The notes below the pieces were generated by a model. It saw only the letters and a list, made by a program, of their open reading frames with translations, did no database searches and was not told the DNA's origin. Below, piece by piece: positions 47,430-61,123 of a stretch of DNA of 64,000 nt. Within the stretch, counting starts at the first letter, position 1. Each line of letters opens with the position of its first letter. The position numbers and the translations under genes were made by a program. The stretch spans positions 1 through 64,000 of the forward strand of contig SBEH01000003.1 in the NCBI GenBank assembly GCA_009668945.1, written 5' to 3'. The DNA is from Actinomycetota bacterium. Lineage in GTDB: Bacteria > Actinomycetota > Coriobacteriia > Anaerosomatales > Anaerosomataceae.

Positions 47430-48791
47430 ATGGCGCGTGGCAGGTTCATAGTCCTCTCCATCGTGCTCGACGCGATGCTGGTCAATGCCGGCATCGTGGG
47501 CGCGTTCTTCTTGCGTTTCGGCGGGCACCTCCCGACGTTCAACTTCGCGCCGTACGTCGCGCTGTCGCCGCTCATCACTGTGCTGTATCTCGGCGCGGGG
47601 TACATCTTCGGTCTGTACGAGCCCGAACGCACCGAGGGTACATGGGAGCTTGGCCGCGCGGTGTTCCAGGCCGTGACTCTCGGAACGGTCCTCACCGTCG
47701 CCGTGGCCTTCTTCGCCGGCCCGGGCTTCTTCTCGTTCAGCCGGCTTGTGATCCTGATCGCCTGGGTCGCACAGTTCCTGTTGCTGGTCGGCTGGCGTGC
47801 GCTCCTCCTCCGCTTCACGTCGGTCATCTGGCCCGAGCAGCGGATTCTGATCGTCGGTACCACCGAGCTCGCGGCGGAACTCGCCAGAGAGCTCGAGGAG
47901 CGGGCCGGTTGGGGCTATCGGGTTGTCGGCCTGGTGAGTCGTGCCGAAGAAGGGGAGAGCGCGCCTTCGGACTTCCGGGTGCTCGGTGAGGCAGCGGAGG
48001 TCACCGGCATCATCGCGCGCGAGCAGATAGACCGGGTGATCATCGCAAGTCCCGTCGCGCTTCGGGAGCTCATCGAGGACATGGCGCTCAGCAACGAGTC
48101 TGACGTGCGCGTCGAGGTGATTCCCGAACTCTACGAGATCTTCATCGGCACGGTGGACAGCACCGTCTCCGACATCCCGCTGATGGAACTCACGCGGCCC
48201 GCTGCGCCCGGGTGGTATCGCAGCAGCAAACGAGTGCTGGACATCCTCGCGTCGGCGACAGTCCTGGTCGTGCTGTCACCGCTGCTCCTGCTCGTGGCGC
48301 TCGCGATCCTGCTCACGATGGGTTGGCCGGTGTTCTTCCGCCAGGAGCGGGTGGGGCGCAACGGCCGCACGTTCGACGTTGTCAAGTTCCGCACGATGGT
48401 CAACAACGCCGAGGCACTCTCCGGGCCGGTACTCGCCGAAGAAGCCGACCCGCGCGTTACCCCGCTAGGCCGCTTTCTGCGCGCCTCGCGGATCGACGAG
48501 ATACCGCAGCTTGCGAATATCCTTCTCGGCCAGATGAGCTGGGTAGGCCCCCGTCCTGAGCGCCCGTTCTTCGTTGAGCAATATGTGAAGGAGATTCCCG
48601 GCTATCGCGAGCGCTTCAAGGTCAAGCCCGGAGTCACCGGTCTCGCGCAGGTGAGCGGAGGGTATGCAACCACTCCCGAGCGCAAGCTCAAGTTCGACCT
48701 GATCTACATGTATCATCAGAACCTGCTGATGGACATACAGATCCTCGTTGAGACCGTACGGGTCGTACTGACCGGTCACGGCGCCCGATAG
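47430..48791 (+). CDS. Polyprenyl-phosphate sugar-1-phosphate transferase (priming enzyme, WbaP-like)
   Basis: Starts glycan synthesis by moving a sugar-1-phosphate onto undecaprenyl phosphate. 453 aa: four to five N-terminal helices, a central Rossmann-like CoA-binding-3 domain (about 130-250), another helix (LASATVLVVLSPLLLLVALAI) and the catalytic bacterial-sugar-transferase domain with FFRQERVG, VKFRTM, the SRIDEIPQLxN motif, WVGPRPERP and KPGVTGLAQVSG. Full length with all motifs. ATG follows the GT4 stop immediately, so the two are coupled. Confidence 0.94.
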   Translation: MARGRFIVLSIVLDAMLVNAGIVGAFFLRFGGHLPTFNFAPYVALSPLITVLYLGAGYIFGLYEPERTEGTWELGRAVFQAVTLGTVLTVAVAFFAGPGFFSFSRLVILIAWVAQFLLLVGWRALLLRFTSVIWPEQRILIVGTTELAAELARELEERAGWGYRVVGLVSRAEEGESAPSDFRVLGEAAEVTGIIAREQIDRVIIASPVALRELIEDMALSNESDVRVEVIPELYEIFIGTVDSTVSDIPLMELTRPAAPGWYRSSKRVLDILASATVLVVLSPLLLLVALAILLTMGWPVFFRQERVGRNGRTFDVVKFRTMVNNAEALSGPVLAEEADPRVTPLGRFLRASRIDEIPQLANILLGQMSWVGPRPERPFFVEQYVKEIPGYRERFKVKPGVTGLAQVSGGYATTPERKLKFDLIYMYHQNLLMDIQILVETVRVVLTGHGAR

Positions 48792-48801
48792 GAGAGTGCG
48801 C

Positions 48802-51219
48802 GTGGCCAAGTCCGGAGCTCGCAAGCGCGTTGTCGCGCCCTCACCGGGTGCCGCTCGGATGTCCCCGCGCACGATCGAGCCGGCCGACGCACGGATGGAC
48901 CTCTGGGACCGGATCGCCTGGGCCTTTCTGCATGTCCTCGTCGTTCTTGTACCTCTGGCGATGTCCAACTTCGGGCCGTTCAGTCCAGACGGCGTCCCGC
49001 TCACCTACGACCAGTTCGACATCGTCAAGGTGTTCCTCCAGCGCGGCATTCTGGCTCTGGCCCTGGCTGCATGGGCCGCCGGGCTGCTCGTGCGCGGCGG
49101 GCGCGTGCGTTTCACCCGCGGTGAGTGGGTCCTGCTCGCCTTTCTCGCGTGGCTGTTGCTGACCACCGTCCTCTCGGTCCATCCGCCGACCGCGATCTTC
49201 GGGAAGTACCGCCGGTTCGAGGGCCTGCTCTCCTTCATCACCTACGGAGTGGCGTTCTTCATGGCGCTCCAATACGCAACGACGGCGCAACGCGTGCGAT
49301 CCCTCGCCCGTTCACTCGCGGTGGGCGGTTTCCTGGTGGCCGCATACGGCGCCCTGCAGGTGGTAGGCACGGTCGCTTTGGGTACGGCGCGAGTCGCTCA
49401 GCCGGTTGCGACGCTGCTCACGGTGATCGCGCCGCTGCTGTTCGGGTACATGGCGGTCGCCCGGTCAGGCGACGACCGCGAGCTCAAGAGGGCGTACTGG
49501 ACTGCGGCGGTCATCGCGCTCATCGGAGGGGCTGTGCTTTCTGCGGGACTCGCCCAGAACATCGACATTGCCATGTCCAACTCCACAACGGGCGAAGCCG
49601 TTCGCGTCGCCCTGGACCCGGTCCGTTGGGGGAGGCTCGGGTTCGAGTCGAACCGGGCCTTCTCGACCTTCGGCAACCCTGACATGCTCGGCGGCTACCT
49701 CATCTTCCCATTCGCCGTGACGCTGGGCCTCGCGCTCTCTGAGAAGCATCGCGTGTGGCGCGCTATCTACTGGAACTTCACGCTGCTCAACGTGTTCGTG
49801 GGTATCACGTCGTATGTTCGCGGCGCGTGGATCGGCGCCGTGGTGGCGCTCGGATTGCTCATCTTCGCCTACCTCCGGGCGCGGCGAGGTACCGATATGC
49901 GGCTGACCCAGACCGATGTCACGTTCATCGGCGGAGCGGGCGCCGTCGGCACGGCGGTGATCGCCGCCAGCTCACTCCGGCCGGACGCGGTCCGAAACGT
50001 GCTCACCCGCGTTGTGTCCATCTTCCAGTTCGGTGAGGGAAGCGCACTGACCCGCACGCAGATCTGGCACGCCGCCGCCGATGCGATTGCGGCGCGGCCG
50101 GTATTCGGCTGGGGTGCCGACACGTTTCGCCTGCTGTTCCCCATGTTCAAGCCCGCCGAGTACGTGGAAGCGGCCGGGTACCTGTCGGTGGCCGACAACG
50201 TCCACAACTACCCGCTCCAGCTGGCGAGTGGAATCGGGATTCCCGGTGCGCTGCTCTTCTACGCCGCGATCGGGTCGGCGCTGGCGATTGCAGCGCGCAC
50301 CGCCTTCGCGCGTGGAAGCGCCGAGCGCAACCTGGTGCTCGCCGGCTTTTGGGCAGCGGTCGTCGGCTACGTAGTTCACCTGATGTTCGGGCTGTCGGTC
50401 ACGGGGTCGACCGTGATCTTGTGGCTTGCCATGGGCGTCTTGCTCGGCCCCGTGGCCACCGTACATGACGTCGCGCCGATGGCGTGGCGCATGGTCGGTC
50501 TGTCGGCGGTCGGTGTCGCTCTTGTCGTGGTGAGCACGCTCAACGTCCGGTACATCGCAGCCGACACGCACTACTTGCGCGGGCGCGTGCTGACGATCGG
50601 CCTCGAGCGCGTCTCAGAGATCGAGAGGGCGATAGAGCTCAACCCGTACAACGACATGTACCGCCTGGAATTGGGGACCGCGTGGAGAGACCTGTTCCGT
50701 GCTTCGGCGGATGAGTATGCCCGGAAGGTGGCAGACGGAACGGCCGACTCTCAGCTGAAGCAGAACACGCTCGACTACTACGCCCGCGCCTCCGATGCCT
50801 ATGAGGCGATGATCGAGTATGTGCCACAGGAGTACGACACGTACGTCTACCTCGCGAACCTCCACAACGAGGCTGCGACACTCGTCGATCCAGGGTACGC
50901 TGTACTTGCGGTGGACGCCGCCGAACGCGGCAAGGCCGTGCAGCGCTACGGGCCGGCCATACGCGTCCAATTGGCGATCGGCCTCATGCTGCAGGGAAGG
51001 CTGGACGAGGCGATCAGCGAGCTCGAGGTCGCGTGCGACCTCGATCCGAACTACACCCAGGCGTATCTCGTGTTGGCCTCGGCGGATCGCCAGGCCGGCA
51101 GATACGATGACGCGCGAGCTGCGCTCGGCCACGTGCTGACGCGTTTCCCGGACGATGCGGAAGCCCTGGCTGCCCTGCAGTCACTCGAGGCAAGCGCGAC
51201 AACGAGTACCGGGCAATGA
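48802..51219 (+). CDS. O-antigen ligase-like membrane protein with C-terminal TPR-type domain
   Basis: 805 aa. About 11-12 membrane helices in the first 560 residues hold the O-antigen-ligase/Wzy_C pattern: FSTFGNPDMLGGYL in one loop, and GWGADTF with DNVHNYPLQ in the large outer loop. A soluble region of about 230 residues with TPR-like helices (for example AIELNPYNDMYRLELG and GRLDEAISELEVACDLDPN) follows. It could join the finished glycan to its acceptor or polymerise repeats; sequence alone does not separate these. GTG 48802 is favoured by GGAG 7 bases upstream. Start of Rex lies just beyond its end. Confidence 0.86.
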   Translation: MAKSGARKRVVAPSPGAARMSPRTIEPADARMDLWDRIAWAFLHVLVVLVPLAMSNFGPFSPDGVPLTYDQFDIVKVFLQRGILALALAAWAAGLLVRGGRVRFTRGEWVLLAFLAWLLLTTVLSVHPPTAIFGKYRRFEGLLSFITYGVAFFMALQYATTAQRVRSLARSLAVGGFLVAAYGALQVVGTVALGTARVAQPVATLLTVIAPLLFGYMAVARSGDDRELKRAYWTAAVIALIGGAVLSAGLAQNIDIAMSNSTTGEAVRVALDPVRWGRLGFESNRAFSTFGNPDMLGGYLIFPFAVTLGLALSEKHRVWRAIYWNFTLLNVFVGITSYVRGAWIGAVVALGLLIFAYLRARRGTDMRLTQTDVTFIGGAGAVGTAVIAASSLRPDAVRNVLTRVVSIFQFGEGSALTRTQIWHAAADAIAARPVFGWGADTFRLLFPMFKPAEYVEAAGYLSVADNVHNYPLQLASGIGIPGALLFYAAIGSALAIAARTAFARGSAERNLVLAGFWAAVVGYVVHLMFGLSVTGSTVILWLAMGVLLGPVATVHDVAPMAWRMVGLSAVGVALVVVSTLNVRYIAADTHYLRGRVLTIGLERVSEIERAIELNPYNDMYRLELGTAWRDLFRASADEYARKVADGTADSQLKQNTLDYYARASDAYEAMIEYVPQEYDTYVYLANLHNEAATLVDPGYAVLAVDAAERGKAVQRYGPAIRVQLAIGLMLQGRLDEAISELEVACDLDPNYTQAYLVLASADRQAGRYDDARAALGHVLTRFPDDAEALAALQSLEASATTSTGQ

Positions 51220-51236
51220 CGGGGAGGGGCTGGCAG

Positions 51237-51869
51237 ATGGACCGCCGCGACATACCTGATACGACGATCCAGCGGCTGCCGCTGTACCTCAGGTGCCTTC
51301 TGGAAGCGCAGACCGTGAGAATGCCGGTGGTCAGCTCCAGTGCGCTGGCGGAGATGTGCGGGACGAATGCCCCGCAAGTCCGCAAGGACCTCTCGTACCT
51401 CGGCGAACTCGGCACGCGCGGCATCGGCTATGACGTCGAGGCGCTGATCGCACACATCTCGGGCGTTCTCGGCATCGATGAGCGCAGGCGGGCGGTTCTC
51501 GTCGGGTACGGCCGGTTCGGCAGCGCGTTGCTGGGCTACCCGGGATTCGGAGAGCGGGGCTTCGAGATCGTCGCCGTTCTCGACTCCGATCCGACGAAGA
51601 TCGGGACGCGTGTCGGAGACGTGACCATCAGCGACGTGAGGGAACTTGAGAGTGTCGTCCCGGCAACCGGCGCCGAAATCGCGATCCTTGCGACCCCGGC
51701 CGCGGTCACCCAGGCGGTTGCCGCCCGTCTGGCGGCCGCGGGCATACGGGGGATCTTGAACCTGGCGCCGGTCACATTGTCGCTGGCAAACGGCGTAGCG
51801 GTGCGCCAGGTGTGCTTGTCGACAGAACTGCAGGTGCTGTCGTTTCATCTGGCACAGGGCCCGCTCTGA
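51237..51869 (+). CDS. rex: Redox-sensing transcriptional repressor Rex
   Basis: 210 aa. N-terminal winged helix begins IPDTTIQRLPLYLR, with SSSALAEMCGTNAPQVRKDLSYLG as recognition region. The NAD(H)-binding Rossmann fold starts LVGYGRFGSA (90-97), and a C-terminal swap helix completes it. Rex senses the NADH/NAD ratio and represses respiratory and fermentative genes. ATG 51237 has GGGGAGGGG 7 bases before it; ATG 51216 would overlap the ligase stop (ATGA). The cytochrome island directly downstream is an obvious candidate target, though no Rex palindrome was seen at its head. Confidence 0.94.
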   Translation: MDRRDIPDTTIQRLPLYLRCLLEAQTVRMPVVSSSALAEMCGTNAPQVRKDLSYLGELGTRGIGYDVEALIAHISGVLGIDERRRAVLVGYGRFGSALLGYPGFGERGFEIVAVLDSDPTKIGTRVGDVTISDVRELESVVPATGAEIAILATPAAVTQAVAARLAAAGIRGILNLAPVTLSLANGVAVRQVCLSTELQVLSFHLAQGPL

Positions 51870-51911: not shown

Positions 51912-52700
51912 GTGGCTCGCACACGCAAAGACCAGGGGACGTCGGACGCGCCGGACGAGGTCGTTCTCGCAGGCGAGGAAGACATGGATGTCGCCCGGTC
52001 CGAGAACGCCGACCGTGAGGCAGAACCTGCGGGACGAGGCGAAGAGCGCCCGGCGGAGGACGCGGTGGCTGTCGCCGGCGACCTGATTCCCGGCTGGCTC
52101 GCGCTGCTCGTCCTGGTGCTGCTGCTGGCGGTGGCCGGTCTCGGAGGGTACCTCATACGCGGCGCGCTCGTGGATGACCGTATCGACACCCCCTCCGAGC
52201 TCGCGGTCAAGGACCTCGAAGACCAGGTCTCCTCGAATCCTGGGGATCCGGAGCGTCTGCTGGCGCTCGGCTATGCCTACCAGGAAGAAGGTCGCTACGA
52301 GGAAGCTCTGGACCTCTACGGTCAGGTCCTCGAGCTGGATTCCGACAACACCGGCGCGCTGTACAACAAGGGCGTGGTGCTGTCCGAACTTGGACGGGAC
52401 AAGGACGCGGAAGCGGCATATTGGGACGTCCTTGAGGTCGCACCGGACCACGCTCTTGCGGCGAAAGCCCTCGGCCAGTACTACGTGAGCAAGAAGCACT
52501 ACAAGTCGGCACTGACCGCACTCGAGCCGGTCATCAAAGAGCGGCCGCAGTACGCGGATCTGCAGTACCTTGCGGGCTACTCGTGCGAGCAGCTCGGCAT
52601 CGATGAGACCGCTATCCGCTACTACCGTGGAGCGCTGACGTACAACCCCGATTATCAAGAAGCCAAGGCCGGACTCGCCCGTCTCGGCGCGTCGGAGTGA
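51912..52700 (+). CDS. Single-spanning membrane protein with TPR repeats
   Basis: About 262 aa. A charged N-terminus rich in Asp/Glu (cytosolic), one helix (LIPGWLALLVLVLLLAVAGL, near residue 60) and then an outer domain of four TPR-like repeats (AYQEEGRYEEALDLYGQVLELD and three more). TPR tails of this type hold protein partners. Five bases separate it from the NHL protein. The start is uncertain: GTG 51876, ATG 51879 and GTG 51882 are in frame, and a TATAGT at 51872-51877 could be a -10 box that would favour 51912. Confidence 0.75.
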   Translation: MARTRKDQGTSDAPDEVVLAGEEDMDVARSENADREAEPAGRGEERPAEDAVAVAGDLIPGWLALLVLVLLLAVAGLGGYLIRGALVDDRIDTPSELAVKDLEDQVSSNPGDPERLLALGYAYQEEGRYEEALDLYGQVLELDSDNTGALYNKGVVLSELGRDKDAEAAYWDVLEVAPDHALAAKALGQYYVSKKHYKSALTALEPVIKERPQYADLQYLAGYSCEQLGIDETAIRYYRGALTYNPDYQEAKAGLARLGASE

Positions 52701-52704
52701 ACTG

Positions 52705-53856
52705 ATGAGCGAGCCTGCGCTGGACGACCTCCTGGAGTCGCTCCCGGGGGAGTCCGCTCCCGTTGAACCGCGGGTAGAAGAGAAGAAGCACGAGCAGGGT
52801 GACTGCTTCTACCTCACGCCACGACGGGCGTTCATGCTGCTAGCGATCGTGCTGGCGCTCATCCTGGCCGGACTGATCGCGTACCTGCTCATGTTCATCG
52901 GGCGTCCGGAGTCTCTCGTCGACCTGCCCACCGTGAAGGGCATCCAGCCCGTATGGGAAGTGTATGGCCCGGGAGTGGGCGAGGTGCCGCTGTTCGATCG
53001 CCCGATGGGTGTTGCCGAGAGCGGAGGGCGCTTCTACGTCACCGACAGCGGCAACAACAGGGTCTGCGTGTTCGACACGAACGGCCGGTACGTGAAGCAG
53101 TTCGGAAGCTTCGGTATCGCCAAGCCGGCGGCGGGGTACAAGGCGACATACGTTGCGGGCTCACTCAACTACCCCGTGGGTATCGACTGCGATGAGGACG
53201 GGAACGTGTACGTCGCGAGCTTCTACAACGACTCCATAGAGGTGTTCGACGCCAACGGCACTCCGCTCCGGCGCTTCCCGGACCCGACGCTCCCGGTGGG
53301 CCGCGGCGGTTCCGGCTACGGCGGGGCCGGCATCGCCGTGACCGATGTCGCGGTGAGCAGGGATCGCATCTATGCGACCGATGCGTATCAGGTCTTCGTG
53401 TTCACGCTCGCGGGTGAGTTCGTCGCCCAGTGGGGCAAGCCAGGCCCAGAACCCGGTGACCTCGACCACCCCAACGGTATCGCCGTCAGCGACGACGGTC
53501 AGACGGTATATGTGTCGGACTCCAACCACAACCGCGTGACCGCCTTTACGCCTGAAGGCGACGTCCTCTGGCAGGTAGGCGAGATCTCGGGGGGCATCGA
53601 CGACCGGGAACCCGGTGCGTTAGAGTTGCCGCGCGGTATCGCAGTACTGAACGACGGCTCCATCATCGTGACCGACGTGTTCGCATTCTCGCTGGTGAAC
53701 ATCAGTGCCGACGGCGAGGTTCTAGGCAGCTACGGTGAGCGTGGGGTCGAGCCCGGGCAACTGAACTTTGCGAACGACATCGAGTCATTCAGGAGCTACC
53801 TTGCCATTGCCGACAAGGAGAACGGACGGTTGCAGTTGGTGAAGCTTGCCAACTGA
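52705..53856 (+). CDS. Membrane-anchored NHL-repeat beta-propeller protein
   Basis: 383 aa. Acidic N-terminus, one helix (AFMLLAIVLALILAGLIAYLLMFI, about 46-69), a LVDLP motif and then about six NHL-type blades, each with a GI/GV-then-YVxDxxNNR-then-V-F pattern (FDRPMGVAES, YVTDSGNNRVCVFD; LDHPNGIAVS, YVSDSNHNRVTAF; LPRGIAV, IIVTDVFAF). Propellers of this kind act as binding scaffolds outside the cytoplasm. Together with the TPR protein and cytochromes it may form a surface complex. A second, related propeller is at 56508. Confidence 0.85.
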   Translation: MSEPALDDLLESLPGESAPVEPRVEEKKHEQGDCFYLTPRRAFMLLAIVLALILAGLIAYLLMFIGRPESLVDLPTVKGIQPVWEVYGPGVGEVPLFDRPMGVAESGGRFYVTDSGNNRVCVFDTNGRYVKQFGSFGIAKPAAGYKATYVAGSLNYPVGIDCDEDGNVYVASFYNDSIEVFDANGTPLRRFPDPTLPVGRGGSGYGGAGIAVTDVAVSRDRIYATDAYQVFVFTLAGEFVAQWGKPGPEPGDLDHPNGIAVSDDGQTVYVSDSNHNRVTAFTPEGDVLWQVGEISGGIDDREPGALELPRGIAVLNDGSIIVTDVFAFSLVNISADGEVLGSYGERGVEPGQLNFANDIESFRSYLAIADKENGRLQLVKLAN

Positions 53857-53879
53857 CGCCGTGCCTCGCGCGGATCGTC

Positions 53880-53888
53880 TGGTATCAT
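53880..53888 (+). promoter_or_regulatory. Extended -10 element before the 7-haem cytochrome gene
   Basis: TG-G-TATCAT ends 36 bases before the GTG start at 53925, 24 bases after the NHL stop. No -35 box at the right distance. Suggests the cytochromes can be transcribed apart from the TPR-NHL pair. Confidence 0.42.
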
Positions 53889-53924
53889 TGAACGGATGTG
53901 GGCCCGGTAACGGAGGATCACAGG

Positions 53925-54992
53925 GTGTTCCTGAAGCGTTGCATGCCTATAGCGCTCATCGCCATCGTGATGGTCGCCATCGTGTCGCCTGCGCACGCCT
54001 ACGATGAGATACCCCCGGTCAACCCGGACTGCATCGACTGTCACGGTACCGCTGCGGGCACCGAGCCCGCAGGGCCGCACGGCGGGTACCTGACCACGAC
54101 GAACAAGTGCGTCACCTGTCACACCGTGCATAGGGCGCCGGCTGGCGGTACGATTCTGCTTCCGGCTGCGACGATCAAGGGCACATGCGATTTCTGTCAC
54201 GACGGGACCGGCGGCAAGGGCGTGTACGGTGTGCTGGCGGCGAAGATTCCCGCGGTCACCGTGGCTGCCGCGCACCGTATCGACACGACGAACGTGGTGC
54301 CCGGAGGCAGTTCCGGTGGAGGCAGCGCGACAGGCGACTTCTCGGGGATAACGACGGATTACCTCACCTGCAGCGACTGCCATTCTCCCCACGGCGCCAA
54401 CGTGGTGGCCGCGTTCACCGGTGACCGTGCGCGGTCCACGGATGATGCGGGCGGTCTGGGGAACGTCGTGGTCTCAAGCCGGTTGTTGCGCAAGCGCCCG
54501 GTGACCGCGACTGGCGACGTGACCGTGTATGGCTCGGACTGGTGCGCCGGATGTCACAAGGGCCGGCTGTCCGGATCCGGCATGGCGAGCAACCATCCCG
54601 TAGAGTCAAGCGTCAACCTGCCGCCCGGCGGAGCAGCGAGCATGCACTACTACCAGTACGTCGCGAAAGTGACGACGGCGGACGTGAGCACGACCACCAA
54701 GGGCACACTCGGGAAGTCGAATTACGGCTACGTGATGCCCGATCCGCGCACTGCCGATCAGACCGGTCACGACCCGATCTGCCAGCAGTGTCACGAAGAC
54801 GCCCGCTCGGTGGGGAACGTCCACCCTCAGCAGGTCGATTCGACGGAGGTCTTCACGCTAACGGCTCTCGACGGCGCGGTGACCGGGGACAACCCGCGTT
54901 TCCAGACGTTCCCGCATGAGTCGCCGAACACCTTCTTCTTGGTGGAGTTGAACGACAGTCTGTGCCTGAACTGTCACGCGCCCCCGCCGTAG
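53925..54992 (+). CDS. Exported 7-haem c-type cytochrome
   Basis: 355 aa with a Sec signal (basic FLKR, hydrophobic stretch, cleavage likely after AHA before YDE). Seven CXXCH motifs are visible: CIDCH, CVTCH, CDFCH, CSDCH, CAGCH, CQQCH and CLNCH. Several are followed by HG or PHG, supplying possible distal ligands. A Gly/Ser-rich segment sits between haems 3 and 4. It lacks a membrane helix beyond the signal, so it is probably extracytoplasmic. GTG 53925 has GGAGG at 53912-53916, 8 bases upstream; GTG 53898 would spoil the signal peptide. Confidence 0.9.
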   Translation: MFLKRCMPIALIAIVMVAIVSPAHAYDEIPPVNPDCIDCHGTAAGTEPAGPHGGYLTTTNKCVTCHTVHRAPAGGTILLPAATIKGTCDFCHDGTGGKGVYGVLAAKIPAVTVAAAHRIDTTNVVPGGSSGGGSATGDFSGITTDYLTCSDCHSPHGANVVAAFTGDRARSTDDAGGLGNVVVSSRLLRKRPVTATGDVTVYGSDWCAGCHKGRLSGSGMASNHPVESSVNLPPGGAASMHYYQYVAKVTTADVSTTTKGTLGKSNYGYVMPDPRTADQTGHDPICQQCHEDARSVGNVHPQQVDSTEVFTLTALDGAVTGDNPRFQTFPHESPNTFFLVELNDSLCLNCHAPPP

Positions 54993-55035
54993 GGTCGCGA
55001 CGTCGTTGTCGGGCAAGATGCTGCGGGGAGGTTCG

Positions 55036-56502
55036 TTGAGTGACCCTGACGTCGAGGTAGGAGCTGTCGCCGGCCCCGGCGACGAGCAGACCGGCGCCAC
55101 GAATCGCCGCGGTCGCGGCGTGTTCGCCGCCGTTCTGCTCCTCCTCCTGCTGCTCTGCGCGGTCACCACGATCACGCAGACCTACGTCACGGCCGGCTCC
55201 GACCGCACGATCCGCAGCGTCACCCAGAACCTCGAATGCCTGCAATGTCACGTCGAGCTGATTCCCGAATTCTCCAAGGACTGGGTGCACAATCCGTTCG
55301 AGTCTGAGCGATGCACGACCTGCCACACGCCGCACGGCGAGATCGAGACCACGACTGTACTCGGCGGGATCAAGCAGGTGTGGAATCGCACGCGCACTCT
55401 CGTCGAGTGGCTGCCGCTCAAGATCATCCTCGACGTTTTCGGAACCGGCGATCAGGTGGCAGGAGAGGACGGCGGCGGCGTCAAGAGCCGTACTGAGAAG
55501 CAGGTCAAGGGGCAGAAGTCCGAGCTGGTCATGCCCATGGACGAACTCTGCTGGATGTGCCACGGTGACATGGGTCCGCAGCGTAACGAGGCGTACGCTC
55601 ACGTGCCGTTCGTCAAGGGTCGGTGTACGGAGTGTCACGACCCCCATGCATCGGACTACCGTGTCATGCTCGTGATGCCGGTCGAGGACCTGTGCATCAC
55701 GTGCCATCCGATCGGCCCCGAACTGAAGCGCAAGCAGGTCCACGCGCCGGTCGACGGCTTCCACTGCACGAACTGCCACGATCCGCACGGCACGCAGTGG
55801 AAGGGCATGCTGGTCGACAACCAGCGGGACCTGTGCTTCACGTGTCACCCGTCGGTGGCACGGCTCTCGGGCATGTCCGTCCAACACGGCCCATATCTGA
55901 ACGACGCGTGTTCGGACTGTCATGAGCCGCACGGCTCCGACTATATGCCGCTTCTCCGAAGGAGCCAGCCCGCGCTGTGCTATGGCTGCCACCCCGGCAT
56001 CCAGAATCAGTTCCTGAGGGCCAGCCACCACCCGGTGGGCACGATCTCGCTGGACTGCACCGGATGTCACGATGCGCACGCCACGAACTACGCGGGGCTG
56101 CTCTACGACAACGACAACGGTATCTGCTACGACTGCCACGCCGTGCCGATCCAGACGACCTACGACCGTTCGGCGCACTTCAGGACTCCGTGTTGGGGAT
56201 GTCATACGCCCCACGGTTCCGACTATGGGCCGCTACTCAAGGCGCCGCAGCCCGAAGTGTGCTTCGCGTGCCATCCCCGCTCTGCGTATGACGATCGGGC
56301 CGGCGGCTACAAGAACCACCCGGTGCGGCCGGTGTTCTTCGACGTGCACGAGAACACCGGGCTCACGTGCACCACGACCTGCCACAACCCGCACGGCACG
56401 CAGTACACGCGCATGCTCCAGCACTACAACGCTCCGCAGGACGGCAACTGCCTGATCTGCCACGCGGTGGTGCCGGGCCAGATCGTCGGCGTCGACTACT
56501 AG
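55036..56502 (+). CDS. Membrane-anchored multihaem c-type cytochrome with paired CXXCH motifs (14 CXXCH plus one CX3CH)
   Basis: 488 aa. One N-terminal helix (GVFAAVLLLLLLLCAVTTI) without a clear cleavage site, then a long haem domain. Fourteen CXXCH motifs occur mostly in pairs, the second of each pair followed by PHG or similar (doubled-CXXCH family). One further site reads CTTTCH, a CX3CH spacing, near the C-terminus and also followed by NPHG. A helical insert of about 80 residues separates the first pair from the rest. Such proteins carry electrons between the quinone pool and outer partners. TTG 55036 has GGGGAGG just upstream; ATG 55018 or TTG 55006 are alternatives. Confidence 0.9.
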   Translation: MSDPDVEVGAVAGPGDEQTGATNRRGRGVFAAVLLLLLLLCAVTTITQTYVTAGSDRTIRSVTQNLECLQCHVELIPEFSKDWVHNPFESERCTTCHTPHGEIETTTVLGGIKQVWNRTRTLVEWLPLKIILDVFGTGDQVAGEDGGGVKSRTEKQVKGQKSELVMPMDELCWMCHGDMGPQRNEAYAHVPFVKGRCTECHDPHASDYRVMLVMPVEDLCITCHPIGPELKRKQVHAPVDGFHCTNCHDPHGTQWKGMLVDNQRDLCFTCHPSVARLSGMSVQHGPYLNDACSDCHEPHGSDYMPLLRRSQPALCYGCHPGIQNQFLRASHHPVGTISLDCTGCHDAHATNYAGLLYDNDNGICYDCHAVPIQTTYDRSAHFRTPCWGCHTPHGSDYGPLLKAPQPEVCFACHPRSAYDDRAGGYKNHPVRPVFFDVHENTGLTCTTTCHNPHGTQYTRMLQHYNAPQDGNCLICHAVVPGQIVGVDY

Positions 56503-56507
56503 ACCGC

Positions 56508-57500
56508 ATGACGGACTCCTCCGCCCCCCGCTTCGCCGTGCATCCGCGCACCCTGACGCTCCTGCTGCTGGCGGTCGCCATCATCGCGGGTGCGGCCGTG
56601 TGGTACTACGTGAGCAGGCCTCTGCCCGGCTCGGTGGAACTCGTCGACCTGCCCGAGGAGTCAACGGCCACGGTAGGGTTCGCGGGCATGTTCCCGGCAG
56701 CCGACGCCGATCCGATCGCGAATCCCCTCGGCATCGCGTTCGACGGAGAGACTCTCTTCATTGCCGAGTCTGACGCCGCACGGATTCGGCTGTTCGACAT
56801 GGTTGGAGGCAACGTCGGCGTCATCGATCTCGGGTCCGAGGAGCCGACCGTGGCGGTGTACCCGTCGGCACTTGCCCTGACCGATGACGGACGACTTGCG
56901 GTGGTAGACAACTCGCGCAATCGCGTGCTCGTGGTGGCAGCAGCCGCCTCGGATGATCCGAAGGTGCTGCTGACGATCGCGGGCACCAAGAAGAAGCCGA
57001 TGACGCCGACAGCTGTGGCGTACTCGGAAGGCGAGTTCTACGTCTTCGACGCGGCAGTGCAGGGCATTCGCGTGTATGCGTCAGATGGCGACCGGGTGCG
57101 CACTATCGGCACGGACCTCGCGCCTACGCCCGCGGTCGTATCGGGGATGTGTGTCGCCGACGGTGCGGTCTACCTGACCGATTCGACCGGAGGCAGGGTG
57201 CTGAGAATAGACGCTCAGACGGGCCTCCAGGAGGCGGTATTCCCCGATGGGTACCCGTTGCCGCGCTCGGTTCGTCTTGGACCGGCCGGGGGAGTCATCG
57301 TGGTAGACACATTCGACAGGGCCGTCTACTTCGCCTCGACCGACGGCGAACGTGGCGACGTCATCGACGCCGATGCGGTGGCCGATGGTCCGATGGACTC
57401 GCCGCGGGATGCCGTGTGGGTGCCCCAGGTCGCGCGCCTCTACGTGACGGACGCCGGGCTCGGTCGCGTCATGGTGTACAACGTCCGTGGAACCGAGTAG
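56508..57500 (+). CDS. Second membrane-anchored NHL-like beta-propeller protein
   Basis: 330 aa. Short cytosolic N-terminus, one helix (LTLLLLAVAIIAGAAVWYYV), then ELVDLP and a propeller of five to six degenerate NHL-type blades (NPLGIAFDGETLFIAESDAARIRLFD is the clearest, YVTDAGLGRVMVYN the last). The helix-plus-LVDLP arrangement copies the protein at 52705, so the two are paralogues flanking the cytochromes. ATG 56508 is five bases after the cytochrome stop. Confidence 0.8.
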   Translation: MTDSSAPRFAVHPRTLTLLLLAVAIIAGAAVWYYVSRPLPGSVELVDLPEESTATVGFAGMFPAADADPIANPLGIAFDGETLFIAESDAARIRLFDMVGGNVGVIDLGSEEPTVAVYPSALALTDDGRLAVVDNSRNRVLVVAAAASDDPKVLLTIAGTKKKPMTPTAVAYSEGEFYVFDAAVQGIRVYASDGDRVRTIGTDLAPTPAVVSGMCVADGAVYLTDSTGGRVLRIDAQTGLQEAVFPDGYPLPRSVRLGPAGGVIVVDTFDRAVYFASTDGERGDVIDADAVADGPMDSPRDAVWVPQVARLYVTDAGLGRVMVYNVRGTE

Positions 57501-57517
57501 CGAAGCAGGGCTTTTCG

Positions 57518-57973
57518 ATGCGCAGCGGCACGCTGAAACTGATTGCATTCGCGGCGATACTGGCGGCGATCGCCGCCGCAGCTTGCGCGCCGAAGGGCGC
57601 CGAAGCCGAGATGCATCCGGCGGTTGGGGCCGTTCAGCACCTGCTCGAACTGCGCGCCGATGATGTCCGTGACGCCGAAGCGTACGCGCCGTACTTCGCG
57701 GACTCGGCGCTCGCGACCGCGCTTGCCGAGAGCGCGGCCGGTACGGAGAAGACGCGCCGGGTGCCCGAGTGGGAGACTCCGTATTTGAGCGAGCTCACGC
57801 CGAGCACCGCCTCTGTGGCGGTCGTGTGGAAAGAGAGCGACGGTTTCCCCGATTGGCCGGCGGTTCACGTATTCATGCTCGCCCTGCAGGATGACGCGTG
57901 GATCGTGGAGGATGCTGTCGAGGCGTCGGCCGCGCCGGAACCCCTGGATGACTTTGAGTGGCGGGAGGAGTAG
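57518..57973 (+). CDS. Small lipoprotein of unknown function
   Basis: 151 aa with a lipoprotein-type signal: MRSGTLKL, a hydrophobic stretch and a lipobox ending AAAAC, Cys at about residue 23. The mature part begins with charged residues and a helix (VQHLLELRADDVRDAEAYAPYF), then a mixed region resembling small periplasmic alpha/beta folds. No named domain recognised. It starts 17 bases after the NHL gene and is almost joined to the next lipoprotein gene, so it probably belongs to the same transcript. Confidence 0.7.
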   Translation: MRSGTLKLIAFAAILAAIAAAACAPKGAEAEMHPAVGAVQHLLELRADDVRDAEAYAPYFADSALATALAESAAGTEKTRRVPEWETPYLSELTPSTASVAVVWKESDGFPDWPAVHVFMLALQDDAWIVEDAVEASAAPEPLDDFEWREE

Positions 57974-57974
57974 G

Positions 57975-58505
57975 ATGCGTGCCTCTGCGGTTCGGGAGAC
58001 CCTTCTCCGCATCTCATTGCTGCTGCTTGCGGCGCTGCTCGCGGTGCTGGTCCTCGGCTGCGAAAGCGGCGAGAGTGCTGGGAAGGTGGGGGAAGCGGTC
58101 GCACCCGCTCAGTGGGATCTCTCGACTCCGGAGTCAGCGGTGAGGTCGTACCTGGATTGGGTGAGCTTCTCCTACCGGATGGCGAACTCGGACATTCCGT
58201 CGGCGACGATGACGCCCGAGGAAGGCGTTCGCGTCGACTCCTACATCCAGCTCAATCGCATGGAAGGCAAGGGCATCGAGCAGTTCCTCGAGTCGTTCGA
58301 GGTCGTCTCGGTGACCGAAGAAGCATCGTCGGCGGTCCTGGTATCCCGCGAAGCATGGCGCTATCGCTACTTCTCTCTGGAGTCGCTCAAGTACCTGACC
58401 GATGGTCTGACCGCCAGCTATGACGCGACCTACACGCTCGTCGCCGAGCCGCAGGGGTGGCTGGTCGACAAGGTCGAGGCTACCGCGGAAGACGAGGTGC
58501 AGTAG
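57975..58505 (+). CDS. Second lipoprotein of unknown function
   Basis: 176 aa. Signal with RISLLLLAALLAVLVLGC, lipobox LVLGC, Cys at about residue 29. The mature part has TPESAVRSYLDWVSFSYRM, a start reminiscent of DUF4878-like or NTF2-like lipoproteins in which a helix precedes a curved sheet, and ends YTLVAEPQGWLVDKVEA. That resemblance is a guess. It begins one base after the previous stop, so the two lipoproteins are coupled and may be distant relatives. Confidence 0.7.
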   Translation: MRASAVRETLLRISLLLLAALLAVLVLGCESGESAGKVGEAVAPAQWDLSTPESAVRSYLDWVSFSYRMANSDIPSATMTPEEGVRVDSYIQLNRMEGKGIEQFLESFEVVSVTEEASSAVLVSREAWRYRYFSLESLKYLTDGLTASYDATYTLVAEPQGWLVDKVEATAEDEVQ

Positions 58506-58620: not shown

Positions 58621-60390
58621 ATGTCCAAGACGGACCTCGTCCTGCTGCATGCGCCCAGTGTCTACGACTTCCGGCAGACCTCGATCATGTACGGGCCGGT
58701 CTCGGACCTCGTCCCGTCTAGTCCGATCTTCGAGATGTACCCCCTCGGCTTCACGACCATCGGCGAGTATCTCGAGCGGCACGGCATTCGCGTCCGAATC
58801 GTCAATCTGGCCGTACTGATGCTGTCGAAGCCGGACTTCGACGTGGAGAAGGCCATCCGAGAGATGGACCCGGTCGCCTTCGGCATCGATCTTCACTGGG
58901 CGCCGCATGCACACGGCGCTGTCGAGGTAGCGCGGCTGTGCAAGGAGTACCATCCTCACACGCCGGTCGTCTTCGGCGGGTTCACGTCGACCTACTACCA
59001 CGAGGAGCTCATCGCCTACGACTGCGTGGACTACGTGCTTCGCGGCGACTCGACCGAGGAACCGTTCACGCGCCTCATGTACGCGCTGAAGCGGGGAAGC
59101 AGCGTCTCGGACATCCCGAACCTCATCTGGAAGGACGCGTCAGGTGCGATCGTGGTCAACGCGTTCACCTGTGTCCCTCCGACGTTCGACCACGTCAAAC
59201 TCGACTACAGCTTCTCCATGCGTTCGGTGATCCGGGACCGGGACATGCGATCGTCACTCCCGTTCAAGGACTGGCTCAGCTACCCGGTCTCTGCATCGCT
59301 TACGTGTCGCGGATGCACCCGCAACTGCGTCACGTGCGGGGGATCGGCTAGCGCATTCCGCGACCACTACGGGCGAGACCGGGTCGCGTTCCGAGACCCG
59401 GAGCTGCTTGTAGCCGACATCGCACATATCGCGCGCCACATCCCGGGTCCGGTGTTCGTGCTGAACGACTTCCGCCAGGCCGGTGACGCGTACGTCGAGC
59501 AGTTCATCACGGGCCTGAAGCGCATCGACTTCAAGAACCCGATCGGCTTCGAGTTCTTCACGCCGCCTTCCGAGGAGTTCTACCAGCTGCTGAACGAGAA
59601 CCTGAACGACTACTCGGTGGAGGTCTCGGCCGAGAGTCACGACGACTCGGTGCGTGCCGCCTTCGGCAAGCCGTACACCTGGGATTCGCTCTGCCAGTCC
59701 GTCGAGGCGGCGTTCCGCAACAACTGTCAGCGCTTCGACCTGTACTTCATGACAGGCATTCCCACCCAGACCGCGGCCTCCGTTCTCGGCACGGTCGAGG
59801 CGGTCGAGGCGCTGTACGAACGGATAGGCAACAACCCGAAGCTTCTGCCCTTCATCGGGCCCATGGCGCCGTTCCTGGACCCGGGCTCGCAGGTGTTCGA
59901 GGATCCCGGGCGGTTCGGCTACACGCTTCGCGCGCGGACGCTCGAGGAACACCGCCGGCTGCTCATGCAGCCTTCGTGGAAGTACATCCTGAACTACGTG
60001 CCAGACGCGATGACGCTCGACGAGATGGTCGACGTCACCTACGAGGCGGCACTCGGCCTCAACAGGCTGAAGGCGAGGGTGGGCGCGATCGATCCTGGCA
60101 CGGCAGCGACGACGGAGCAGCGTGTCCTCGAGGCCCAGATCGCGATGGCGAGGATCGATGAGATCATGCGCCACGACGAGCCGGAGCGCAGCACGCTCCT
60201 GGATGCCTACAAGCACGAGATCGACCAGCTCAACGAGAGCACGGTGTGCGAGAAGACGGAGTTGAACTGGCCGGCGAGCGCGAACCTCGGACACGTGCTG
60301 AACAACGTGCGCTTGTGGTTCCGGGTCAACGCCGAGCTGGCCTTCCCGCGCCTGAGGAAGTACGACGACCGCTTCGCAGGGGAGCGCTGA
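58621..60390 (+). CDS. B12-binding-domain radical SAM protein
   Basis: 589 aa. The N-terminal part (about 1-190) has the flavodoxin-like cobalamin-binding fold with FGGFTSTYYHEE, though the usual DxHxxG base motif is only loosely present (FGIDLHWAPHAHG). The radical SAM cluster Cys residues are Cys232, Cys236 and Cys239 (CTRNCVTC), preceded by another Cys at 229. The C-terminal 150 residues are helical and hydrophilic. Members do methylations or rearrangements on unusual substrates; the reaction here is unknown. GGAGGG lies upstream of the ATG. menG follows after four bases. Confidence 0.87.
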   Translation: MSKTDLVLLHAPSVYDFRQTSIMYGPVSDLVPSSPIFEMYPLGFTTIGEYLERHGIRVRIVNLAVLMLSKPDFDVEKAIREMDPVAFGIDLHWAPHAHGAVEVARLCKEYHPHTPVVFGGFTSTYYHEELIAYDCVDYVLRGDSTEEPFTRLMYALKRGSSVSDIPNLIWKDASGAIVVNAFTCVPPTFDHVKLDYSFSMRSVIRDRDMRSSLPFKDWLSYPVSASLTCRGCTRNCVTCGGSASAFRDHYGRDRVAFRDPELLVADIAHIARHIPGPVFVLNDFRQAGDAYVEQFITGLKRIDFKNPIGFEFFTPPSEEFYQLLNENLNDYSVEVSAESHDDSVRAAFGKPYTWDSLCQSVEAAFRNNCQRFDLYFMTGIPTQTAASVLGTVEAVEALYERIGNNPKLLPFIGPMAPFLDPGSQVFEDPGRFGYTLRARTLEEHRRLLMQPSWKYILNYVPDAMTLDEMVDVTYEAALGLNRLKARVGAIDPGTAATTEQRVLEAQIAMARIDEIMRHDEPERSTLLDAYKHEIDQLNESTVCEKTELNWPASANLGHVLNNVRLWFRVNAELAFPRLRKYDDRFAGER

Positions 60391-60394
60391 TCGC

Positions 60395-61123
60395 ATGGCT
60401 TCGCATGTCGGCGAAGAGATCTCCGGGTGCCCCACGACGGAGCGCGTGCAGACGATCTTCTCCACGATCGCGCCGCGATACGATCGCTTCAACCGGATCT
60501 CCAGTCTTGGCCTCGACAGGTCGTGGCGTCGGCGAGCGGTCAGGTACGCGGGTATAGCGCCCGCGGATCAGGTCCTCGACCTGGCCGCCGGCACCGGTGA
60601 TCTCACCATGGCGATCTTGAGGTACGCCGAGCCCGCAGGTCTGCTCTCCACCGACTTCGTGCCTGAGATGCTGGAGGTCGGCGAGCAGAAGGCCTCAAGG
60701 TATCAGGGCGAGACCCTCGTGAGTTTCGCGGTCGTAGACGCCCAGGCACTGCCGTTCCACGACGATGCCTACGACGTCGTGACCGTCGGTTTCGGTGTCA
60801 GGAACATGCCCGACCGCGCCGCCAACTTCAGGGAGGTCCGACGGGTCCTGAAGCCGGGCGGCCGGTATGCGGTACTCGAGTTCAGCCGTCCGTCGCCCGC
60901 ACCTTTCCGCGCCGTCTACCACCTCTATCTGCGTCACGTGATCCCGGCGCTCGGAGCGCTGTTGACACGCGACCGGCGTGCCTTCGAGTATCTGAACAAG
61001 TCCATCGAGGCGTTCCCCGGCAGGGTAGCCCTGGCTCGCGAGTTGCATGAGGCGGGATTCAGCCAGGTGCAGTGGCACACGATGACGTTCGGCATCGTCG
61101 CCGTTCACATCGCCACCAAATGA
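60395..61123 (+). CDS. menG: Demethylmenaquinone methyltransferase
   Basis: Last step of menaquinone synthesis (UbiE/MenG family). 242 aa: VQTIFSTIAPRYDRFNRISSLGLDRSWRR at the N-terminus, motif I LDLAAGTGDLTMAIL, FGVRNMPDR and LKPGGRYAVLEFSRP. All match UbiE/MenG. It lies between the radical SAM gene and an amidohydrolase, which together may relate to quinone chemistry. AGGGGAG precedes the ATG. Confidence 0.93.
   Translation: MASHVGEEISGCPTTERVQTIFSTIAPRYDRFNRISSLGLDRSWRRRAVRYAGIAPADQVLDLAAGTGDLTMAILRYAEPAGLLSTDFVPEMLEVGEQKASRYQGETLVSFAVVDAQALPFHDDAYDVVTVGFGVRNMPDRAANFREVRRVLKPGGRYAVLEFSRPSPAPFRAVYHLYLRHVIPALGALLTRDRRAFEYLNKSIEAFPGRVALARELHEAGFSQVQWHTMTFGIVAVHIATK

Follow-up and report, generated by a model that had tools for sequence, protein, structure and literature searches.

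Could seven closely packed genes, two of them for multihaem cytochromes, form a route by which electrons leave an actinobacterial cell? The question is raised by positions 51912-58505 of a 64,000-nucleotide stretch of DNA, hereafter the window, which comprises positions 1 to 64,000 (forward strand) of contig SBEH01000003.1 in assembly GCA_009668945.1 and comes from an Actinomycetota bacterium of the family Anaerosomataceae (Coriobacteriia, Anaerosomatales). A first-pass annotation, made from the letters of the window, had proposed that the genes may form a wire or a conduit to an outer acceptor. The analysis reported here makes it rather likely that this island is a Rex-associated module for extracellular electron transfer (EET) in a monoderm anaerobic actinobacterium (Anaerosomatales/OPB41 group, Coriobacteriia), in which a wall-spanning conduit would lead to an OmcS-type outer cytochrome.

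Seven closely packed genes encode 22 conserved haem sites

All seven open reading frames (ORFs) lie on the plus strand, tightly packed, in the order TPR, NHL1, CytA (a seven-haem cytochrome), CytB (a 15-haem cytochrome), NHL2, LP1, and LP2, and all products are exported or membrane-anchored, just as had been read at first pass. Seventeen bases separate NHL2 from LP1, and LP1 is followed by LP2 after one base. The earlier count of at least 21 haem motifs held as well: 21 CxxCH motifs were found, seven in CytA and 14 in CytB, and one conserved CxxxCH in CytB brings the island to 22 haem sites. A single N-terminal hydrophobic (transmembrane, TM) helix occurs in each of TPR, NHL1, CytB, and NHL2. 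All 15 haem sites of CytB were invariant in 20 orthologues across the order, as were all seven of CytA in 12 orthologues, so that haem-motif conservation is far beyond chance. CytA starts at GTG 53925, with GGAGG just upstream, whereas the CytB frame is open from 55006 and most likely starts at TTG 55036 behind GGGAGG, giving 488 amino acids (aa), a length that agrees with the orthologues.

CytB resembles decahaem cytochromes of the MtrA/DmsE type

The profile built from the 20 CytB orthologues matched chain A of 6r2q in the PDB with an E value of 1.2e-24, and besides it only 28pb scored below 0.01. This chain, deposited under a wrong molecule name, is the decahaem MtrA of MtrABC. Against TIGR03508, the NCBIfam model of DmsE-type decahaem cytochromes, CytB reached an E value of 1e-50 and 172.7 bits, and because this score is under the cut-off of 192.2, CytB was not filed in the DmsE subfamily. 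Residues 50-116 matched the NrfH model (E 3e-11, below cut-off) without a PF03264 match.

Alongside the 15 haem motifs, the 20 orthologues share 14 invariant non-motif histidines, which suggests that the CytB haems are mostly of the bis-His electron-transfer type, with at most one unusual site. The first-pass annotation had named soluble nitrite- or sulfite-type enzymes with an active-site haem as what might undo its proposal. No match to NrfA, to sulfite reductase, or to another catalytic family was obtained, so the idea of a nitrite or sulfite reductase was rejected.

CytA is linked to OmcS through hexahaem relatives

Four profiles were used for the relation of CytA to the filament cytochromes: A2, made from CytA orthologues; A5, from six-haem proteins encoded beside NHL genes across the phylum; A6, the joint profile; and A7, an unrelated control family with 12 haems. 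Shared motifs are enough to make CxxCH proteins score against one another; the OmcS sequence was therefore shuffled 1000 times, keeping all motifs, their flanks, and every histidine. Profiles A2 and A5 were aligned by hhalign with a probability of 100 and an E value of 1e-52. In the PDB, A6 matched OmcS (6ef8) over its whole length with an E value of 8.2e-13 and OmcE (7tfs) with 3.5e-7, and its score of 50.6 bits on OmcS was reached by none of the 1000 shuffles (maximum 37.8). Used alone, A5 listed OmcS first (E 8.9e-11) and OmcE second, and 14 of the 1000 shuffles reached its OmcS score; A2 gave nothing significant in the PDB, and phmmer with a single hexahaem relative returned chance matches only. 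Control A7 scored OmcS at the shuffle level and ranked NrfH first in the PDB, with OmcS unlisted, and OmcS was not listed for the CytB profile either. Homology to the OmcS group thus appears well supported for the CytA family and indirect for CytA itself, since the link runs through the hexahaem relatives.

Profile-guided alignment placed CytA haems 2-7 on OmcS haems 1-6, with 65 of 253 columns identical, and set CytA His69, His117, His156, and His224 on OmcS His16, His110, His147, and His257. In the OmcS filament, His16 is a ligand to a haem in the adjoining subunit; the position of CytA His69 is a hint, suggestive only, of inter-subunit ligation. Furthermore, CytA has seven CxxCH motifs and six conserved distal histidines, and 12 of its 13 conserved histidines form an OmcS-like core. 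Because there are seven CxxCH motifs, and not exactly six bis-His haems, CytA was not filed as an OmcS orthologue.

The CytA family is multiplied in some genomes, with up to 14 matches (e.g., in genome G010). Paralogues duplicated in tandem, away from the island, were seen at L136:9765-12099 and L139:3040-5450.

The gene order is shared across the order and, more loosely, the phylum

The exact gene order had not been recognised at first pass; a gene-order search in other genomes showed it to be conserved across the Anaerosomatales and, in a looser form, across the phylum. Of 298 genomes sampled from the class, 50 contained CytB, every one of them belonging to the order of the window, and a phylum-wide sample added a CytB-like protein in 21 further genomes outside the class. 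At most of the loci outside the class, Rex, TPR, NHL, and a six-haem CytA-like cytochrome were found together. Synteny was then counted at 32 CytB loci, including ten from families outside the class, for genes on the same strand within 9 kb; the counts are lower bounds, since the flanks of some loci are short. An NHL gene accompanied CytB at 29 of the 32 loci, linking multihaem cytochrome and propeller; Rex did so at 27, and TPR and the ligase/TPR gene at 24 each. CytA-like cytochromes were found at 20 loci, ResB/CcsA (CcsBA) at 14, and NapC/NirT-type cytochromes at 19, the last count including BLAST matches among related multihaem proteins, of which representatives only were checked to pass the PF03264 cut-off.

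The borders first drawn for the island proved too narrow, because Rex and the ligase/TPR gene upstream belong to the conserved block. The Rex stop codon lies 42 bases from the TPR gene, and Rex itself overlaps the ligase/TPR gene. In a neighbouring genus, CytB matches with one in-frame TGA occur at G005:C2:296568-298046 and G007:C17:183367-184854, which may only reflect an over-extended start.

The window carries a reduced or rearranged copy of a larger block

A public-genome scan gave five Coriobacteriia relatives, including EMTCatB1 and UBA2184. Combined, the loci yield a composite block of varying membership whose 5' part reads glycosyltransferase, ligase/TPR, Rex, TPR, NHL1, (CytA), CytB, (NHL2), and whose 3' part reads giant cytochrome of 19-33 haems, ResB, CcsA, LP1/LP2, second Rex, B12-radical-SAM. 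Over all the relatives' blocks, cytochromes with 17-33 haems accompany ResB/CcsA. In the congeners (L061, L062), a giant cytochrome and ResB/CcsA, often with a second Rex, stand between NHL2 and the lipoprotein genes, whereas in the window genome NHL2 runs straight to LP1, and the locus holds no giant cytochrome, ResB, or CcsA. A 2651-aa, 33-haem relative of the giant cytochrome was found instead on contig C32 of the same genome (L056:600-12592), followed by a B12-radical-SAM gene, ResB, and CcsA, and contig C11 carries an LP2-ResB-CcsA unit. The seven genes thus appear to be a reduced or rearranged copy of a larger conserved block. Within the genus, the distribution favours loss or relocation here over gain in the relatives, and the tight junctions speak against misassembly at this locus. 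The downstream B12-radical-SAM, UbiE, and amidohydrolase genes are also conserved in several relatives.

Several further arrangements were observed. The giant cytochromes at L004:11503-15615 and L006:4699-8754 have 33 haems; the L004 protein has CarboxypepD_reg and F5/8 type C (carbohydrate-binding) domains at its end, which might anchor a surface cytochrome to the wall or to polysaccharide, and the L006 protein looks similar. In the window genome, contig C13 carries an NHL gene with a six-haem cytochrome (L058:3099-8862). Beside the CytB block, several more lineages of the order (L072, L073, L074, L065, L068, L070) have a paralogous second cluster, which contains 12-haem and 10-11-haem cytochromes, a TPR protein, an NHL protein with two TM helices, and a CytA-like cytochrome. 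Outside the class, a further propeller type was seen near Rex, TPR, and CytB: PQQ/BamB-type, within a membrane protein of 758 aa (L128:3824-6100, L124:4770-7049).

A proposed route for electrons across membrane and wall

No Omp85 was found in the window genome, which is 99% complete, and the island contains no beta-barrel gene, which sets it apart from porin-cytochrome conduits (MtrCAB/PCC/Uet). Given that a Gram-positive wall type is reported for the order (PMC9686372) and that Omp85 is absent, a conduit here would have to cross membrane and wall only, without a porin. We propose that CytB, anchored in the cytoplasmic membrane, would act as an MtrA-like wire that accepts electrons at the membrane and passes them outward along its haem chain through the wall. 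The electrons could come from the NrfH-like haems at its own N-terminus or from separate cytochromes of the NapC/NirT type encoded elsewhere, and several PF03264 genes were found at other places in the genome. At the outer face, secreted CytA would take them over and serve as the surface relay, perhaps in polymerised form. In relatives the chain would end in the giant surface cytochrome of the same block, of which the homologue is encoded here on another contig. ResB/CcsA, with LP1/LP2, would attach the haems; LP1 and LP2 probably assist in this step or in the assembly of the cytochromes, because homologues of both adjoin ResB-CcsA.

The two propellers and the TPR protein had been read at first pass as scaffolds; Pfam assigned the NHL and TPR families accordingly, and the proteins, each with one TM helix, may be platforms on which the cytochromes dock or are assembled. 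As for the first-pass wire or conduit, CytB with its MtrA/DmsE likeness, the OmcS/OmcE-like CytA family, and ResB/CcsA and giant cytochromes at orthologous loci all argue for it; surface localisation and the path and direction of the electrons we infer from them. The presence of Rex suggests redox-linked control of the island, although direct control is unproven because the Rex operator TGTG-N8-CACA has no site in the window.

The physiology reported for relatives bears on this proposal. Parvivirga hydrogeniphila, of the same order, is an obligate Fe(III) reducer and forms pili-like appendages only with ferrihydrite (PMC9686372). EMTCatB1, which carries locus L004, was a dominant bacterium on an electromethanogenic biocathode, where its multihaem cytochromes were highly expressed (PMC7943316). 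On an anode, a Coriobacteriales genome encoding 37 multihaem cytochromes was found in abundance (PMC7399161).

Several points weigh against the proposed conduit. An AlphaFold2 (AF2) model of CytB from six sequences was poor (pLDDT 30.7, pTM 0.15). Profile A2 alone gave no significant OmcS match, its score being reached by 20-25 of 1000 shuffles. CytA is missing from the EMTCatB1 locus L004 and from L006 and L066, and is therefore not indispensable to the block. That the highly expressed genes of EMTCatB1 are those of L004 is unconfirmed, and so, by accession, is the orthology of a cluster described in Parvivirga, which is compared below. A menaquinol-fed version is weakened, since the genome gave no MqnA/MqnD match and no MenD over cut-off, and PMC9686372 reports a failure to detect respiratory quinones in members of the family. 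Menaquinone synthesis as the electron source is thus unsupported; UbiE and two UbiA-family prenyltransferase genes are present in the genome. A bolder form of the proposal, in which CytB hands electrons to CytA polymerising on membrane-anchored NHL/TPR platforms, so that the block would be a complete, porin-free, nanowire-type export system of monoderms ancestral to several anaerobic Actinomycetota classes, seems to us possible but doubtful.

Alternative functions of the locus

LP1 and LP2 had been called lipoproteins at first pass, and lipobox-like signals, on which the label rests, were found in both. The AF2 model of LP2 (pLDDT 73.9) has an NTF2-like fold, with Foldseek matches of about 1e-6 to ARC6/PARC6 and Tim44 domains; the model yields a predicted fold, not a function. 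Homologues of LP2 lie directly 5' of ResB-CcsA at L004, L006, L066, and L071 and on contig C11. In a first alternative, the locus might serve mainly the maturation or assembly of multihaem cytochromes, with TPR, NHL, and lipoproteins as chaperones or haem-ligation partners and CytA and CytB as their clients. ResB and CcsA inside the block at 14 of the 32 loci would fit such a role, as would the LP2 fold, since NTF2-like folds often serve protein binding; TPR proteins, moreover, handle apocytochromes in other maturation systems (CcmI/NrfG). We nevertheless consider it unlikely: ResB/CcsA are gone from the window locus, yet cytochromes and propellers are kept; CytB stands with NHL at more than twice as many loci as with CcsBA (29 vs 14); and the TPR protein matches CcmH/NrfG-type TPR models weakly.

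Slightly less probable still is respiration of a soluble acceptor in the wall space, in which CytB, like NrfB or DmsE, would pass electrons to a terminal reductase whose gene lies elsewhere, without an extracellular solid taking part. The scores of CytB to DmsE-type and NrfB-like cytochrome models agree with it, and EMTCatB1 is reported to encode nitrite reduction (PMC7943316). However, the island was found to lack a catalytic reductase, as already stated at first pass, and at the 32 loci none was recognised, only further multihaem cytochromes, though not every neighbour was searched for its family. In addition, orthologous blocks hold giant cytochromes with an F5/8 type C domain (L004), and the CytA family is closest to extracellular filament cytochromes.

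Least probable among the three is that the same conduit runs inward, with a cathode, a mineral, or a syntrophic partner as the electron source: in principle, multihaem wires can work in both directions, and EMTCatB1, with its highly expressed multihaem cytochromes, was a dominant bacterium on a biocathode, but the obligate Fe(III) reduction of Parvivirga and the anode-abundant Coriobacteriales genome point the other way.

Features of the island and its surroundings

The features are collected in Table 1. Directly upstream of the island, positions 582-48791 read, as judged from translations by eye, as surface-polysaccharide synthesis (nucleotide-sugar enzymes, glycosyltransferases, and acyltransferases); the last gene of this region, 47430-48791, stays with the island in relatives. 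No Rfam RNA was found in the window, and promoter and terminator scans gave chance-level numbers only.

Table 1. Coordinates and evidence for the island genes and their neighbours in the window
Feature	Position	Strand	Evidence and remarks
O-antigen ligase (Wzy_C) with C-terminal TPR	48796..51219	+	Pfam; stop overlaps Rex; near CytB in 24/32 loci
Rex-type NADH/NAD+-sensing repressor	51216..51869	+	NCBIfam NF003992 equivalog, above cut-off; Rex-like gene at 27/32 CytB loci
TPR protein, one N-terminal TM helix, TPRs predicted outside	51912..52700	+	Pfam; orthologues adjacent within order
NHL1, propeller-type, one N-terminal TM helix	52705..53856	+	Pfam NHL E 4e-23; orthologues 47-70% identical
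CytA, exported 7-haem cytochrome, signal peptide (AHA-Y)	53925..54992	+	Paired-CxxCH/c7 Pfam; OmcS-like hexahaem core with extra N-terminal haem
CytB, one N-terminal TM helix, 15 haems	55036..56502	+	Paired-CxxCH Pfam E 4e-69; NrfH-like start, then MtrA/DmsE-like repeats
NHL2, membrane-anchored NHL propeller	56508..57500	+	Pfam NHL E 3e-12; orthologues precede giant cytochrome in relatives
LP1, putative lipoprotein	57518..57973	+	No significant Pfam family; adjoins CcsA in L003, L005
LP2, putative lipoprotein, predicted NTF2-like fold	57975..58505	+	No significant Pfam family; AF2 and Foldseek
B12-binding radical SAM protein	58621..60390	+	TIGR04190; kept downstream in L004, L067, L069, L075
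UbiE/MenG-like methyltransferase	60395..61123	+	Named from translation; beside B12-radical-SAM gene in L067, L069, L075

Comparison with known systems

What is known of electron passage through thick Gram-positive-type walls comes mainly from a few Firmicutes. The small block conserved in several anaerobic actinobacterial lineages is a defined, testable candidate for wall-crossing EET, and it suggests an old pairing of OmcS-type cytochromes with propeller proteins, independent of an outer membrane. For omcS itself, the adjacent gene GSU2505 is given as a hypothetical protein in the one paper located, so that an NHL neighbour there is unconfirmed. Since the order has cultured members, tests of expression and localisation and cryo-EM are feasible. 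In the open-licence literature searched, we found no description of the conserved Rex-TPR-NHL-CytA-CytB unit, of its distribution over actinobacterial classes, or of CytA as a member of the OmcS group in this context.

The closest published counterpart is in Parvivirga hydrogeniphila Es71-Z0120, whose cluster MCL4079323-32 was described as containing MtrA and OmcH homologues, a putative quinol-oxidising multihaem protein, cytochrome c biogenesis, and Rex (Khomyakova 2022, PMC9686372). Compared by that published description, it comes from the same order and has the content expected of a full version of the island; NHL genes are unmentioned there, and the window locus differs in having neither giant cytochrome nor biogenesis genes. 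Propeller-plus-multihaem operons are known in Gram-negative bacteria (PMC5539420, PMC10734462, PMC12016550). Both Uet of Tenderiales/Gallionella (PMC10734462) and the 16/26-haem operons of bacterial partners of anaerobic methanotrophic archaea (ANME) (PMC5539420) encode multihaem cytochromes with NHL or six-bladed propellers, as the island does. They differ in being Gram-negative and in including a peptidyl-prolyl isomerase (and, in Uet, a porin), and neither Rex nor an anchored TPR protein is described for them; the core propellers of the ANME partners are periplasmic, without TM helices (PMC5539420), whereas the NHL proteins here are anchored.

Among single proteins, CytB shares with MtrA (6r2q) and DmsE repeats that align with the ten-haem MtrA, but its membrane anchor, 15 haems, and NrfH-like start set it apart, as does the lack of a porin partner. 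An OmcS homologue with six CxxCH motifs and 28% identity to OmcS was reported from the anode-enriched Coriobacteriales S27 (PMC7399161); it is actinobacterial like CytA, but was reported singly, without locus context. With OmcS of Geobacter sulfurreducens (6ef8/6nef), CytA shares a full-length family match and six haems and four distal histidines in register, and it differs in not being known to form filaments, in having a seventh, N-terminal haem, and in its place in a monoderm.

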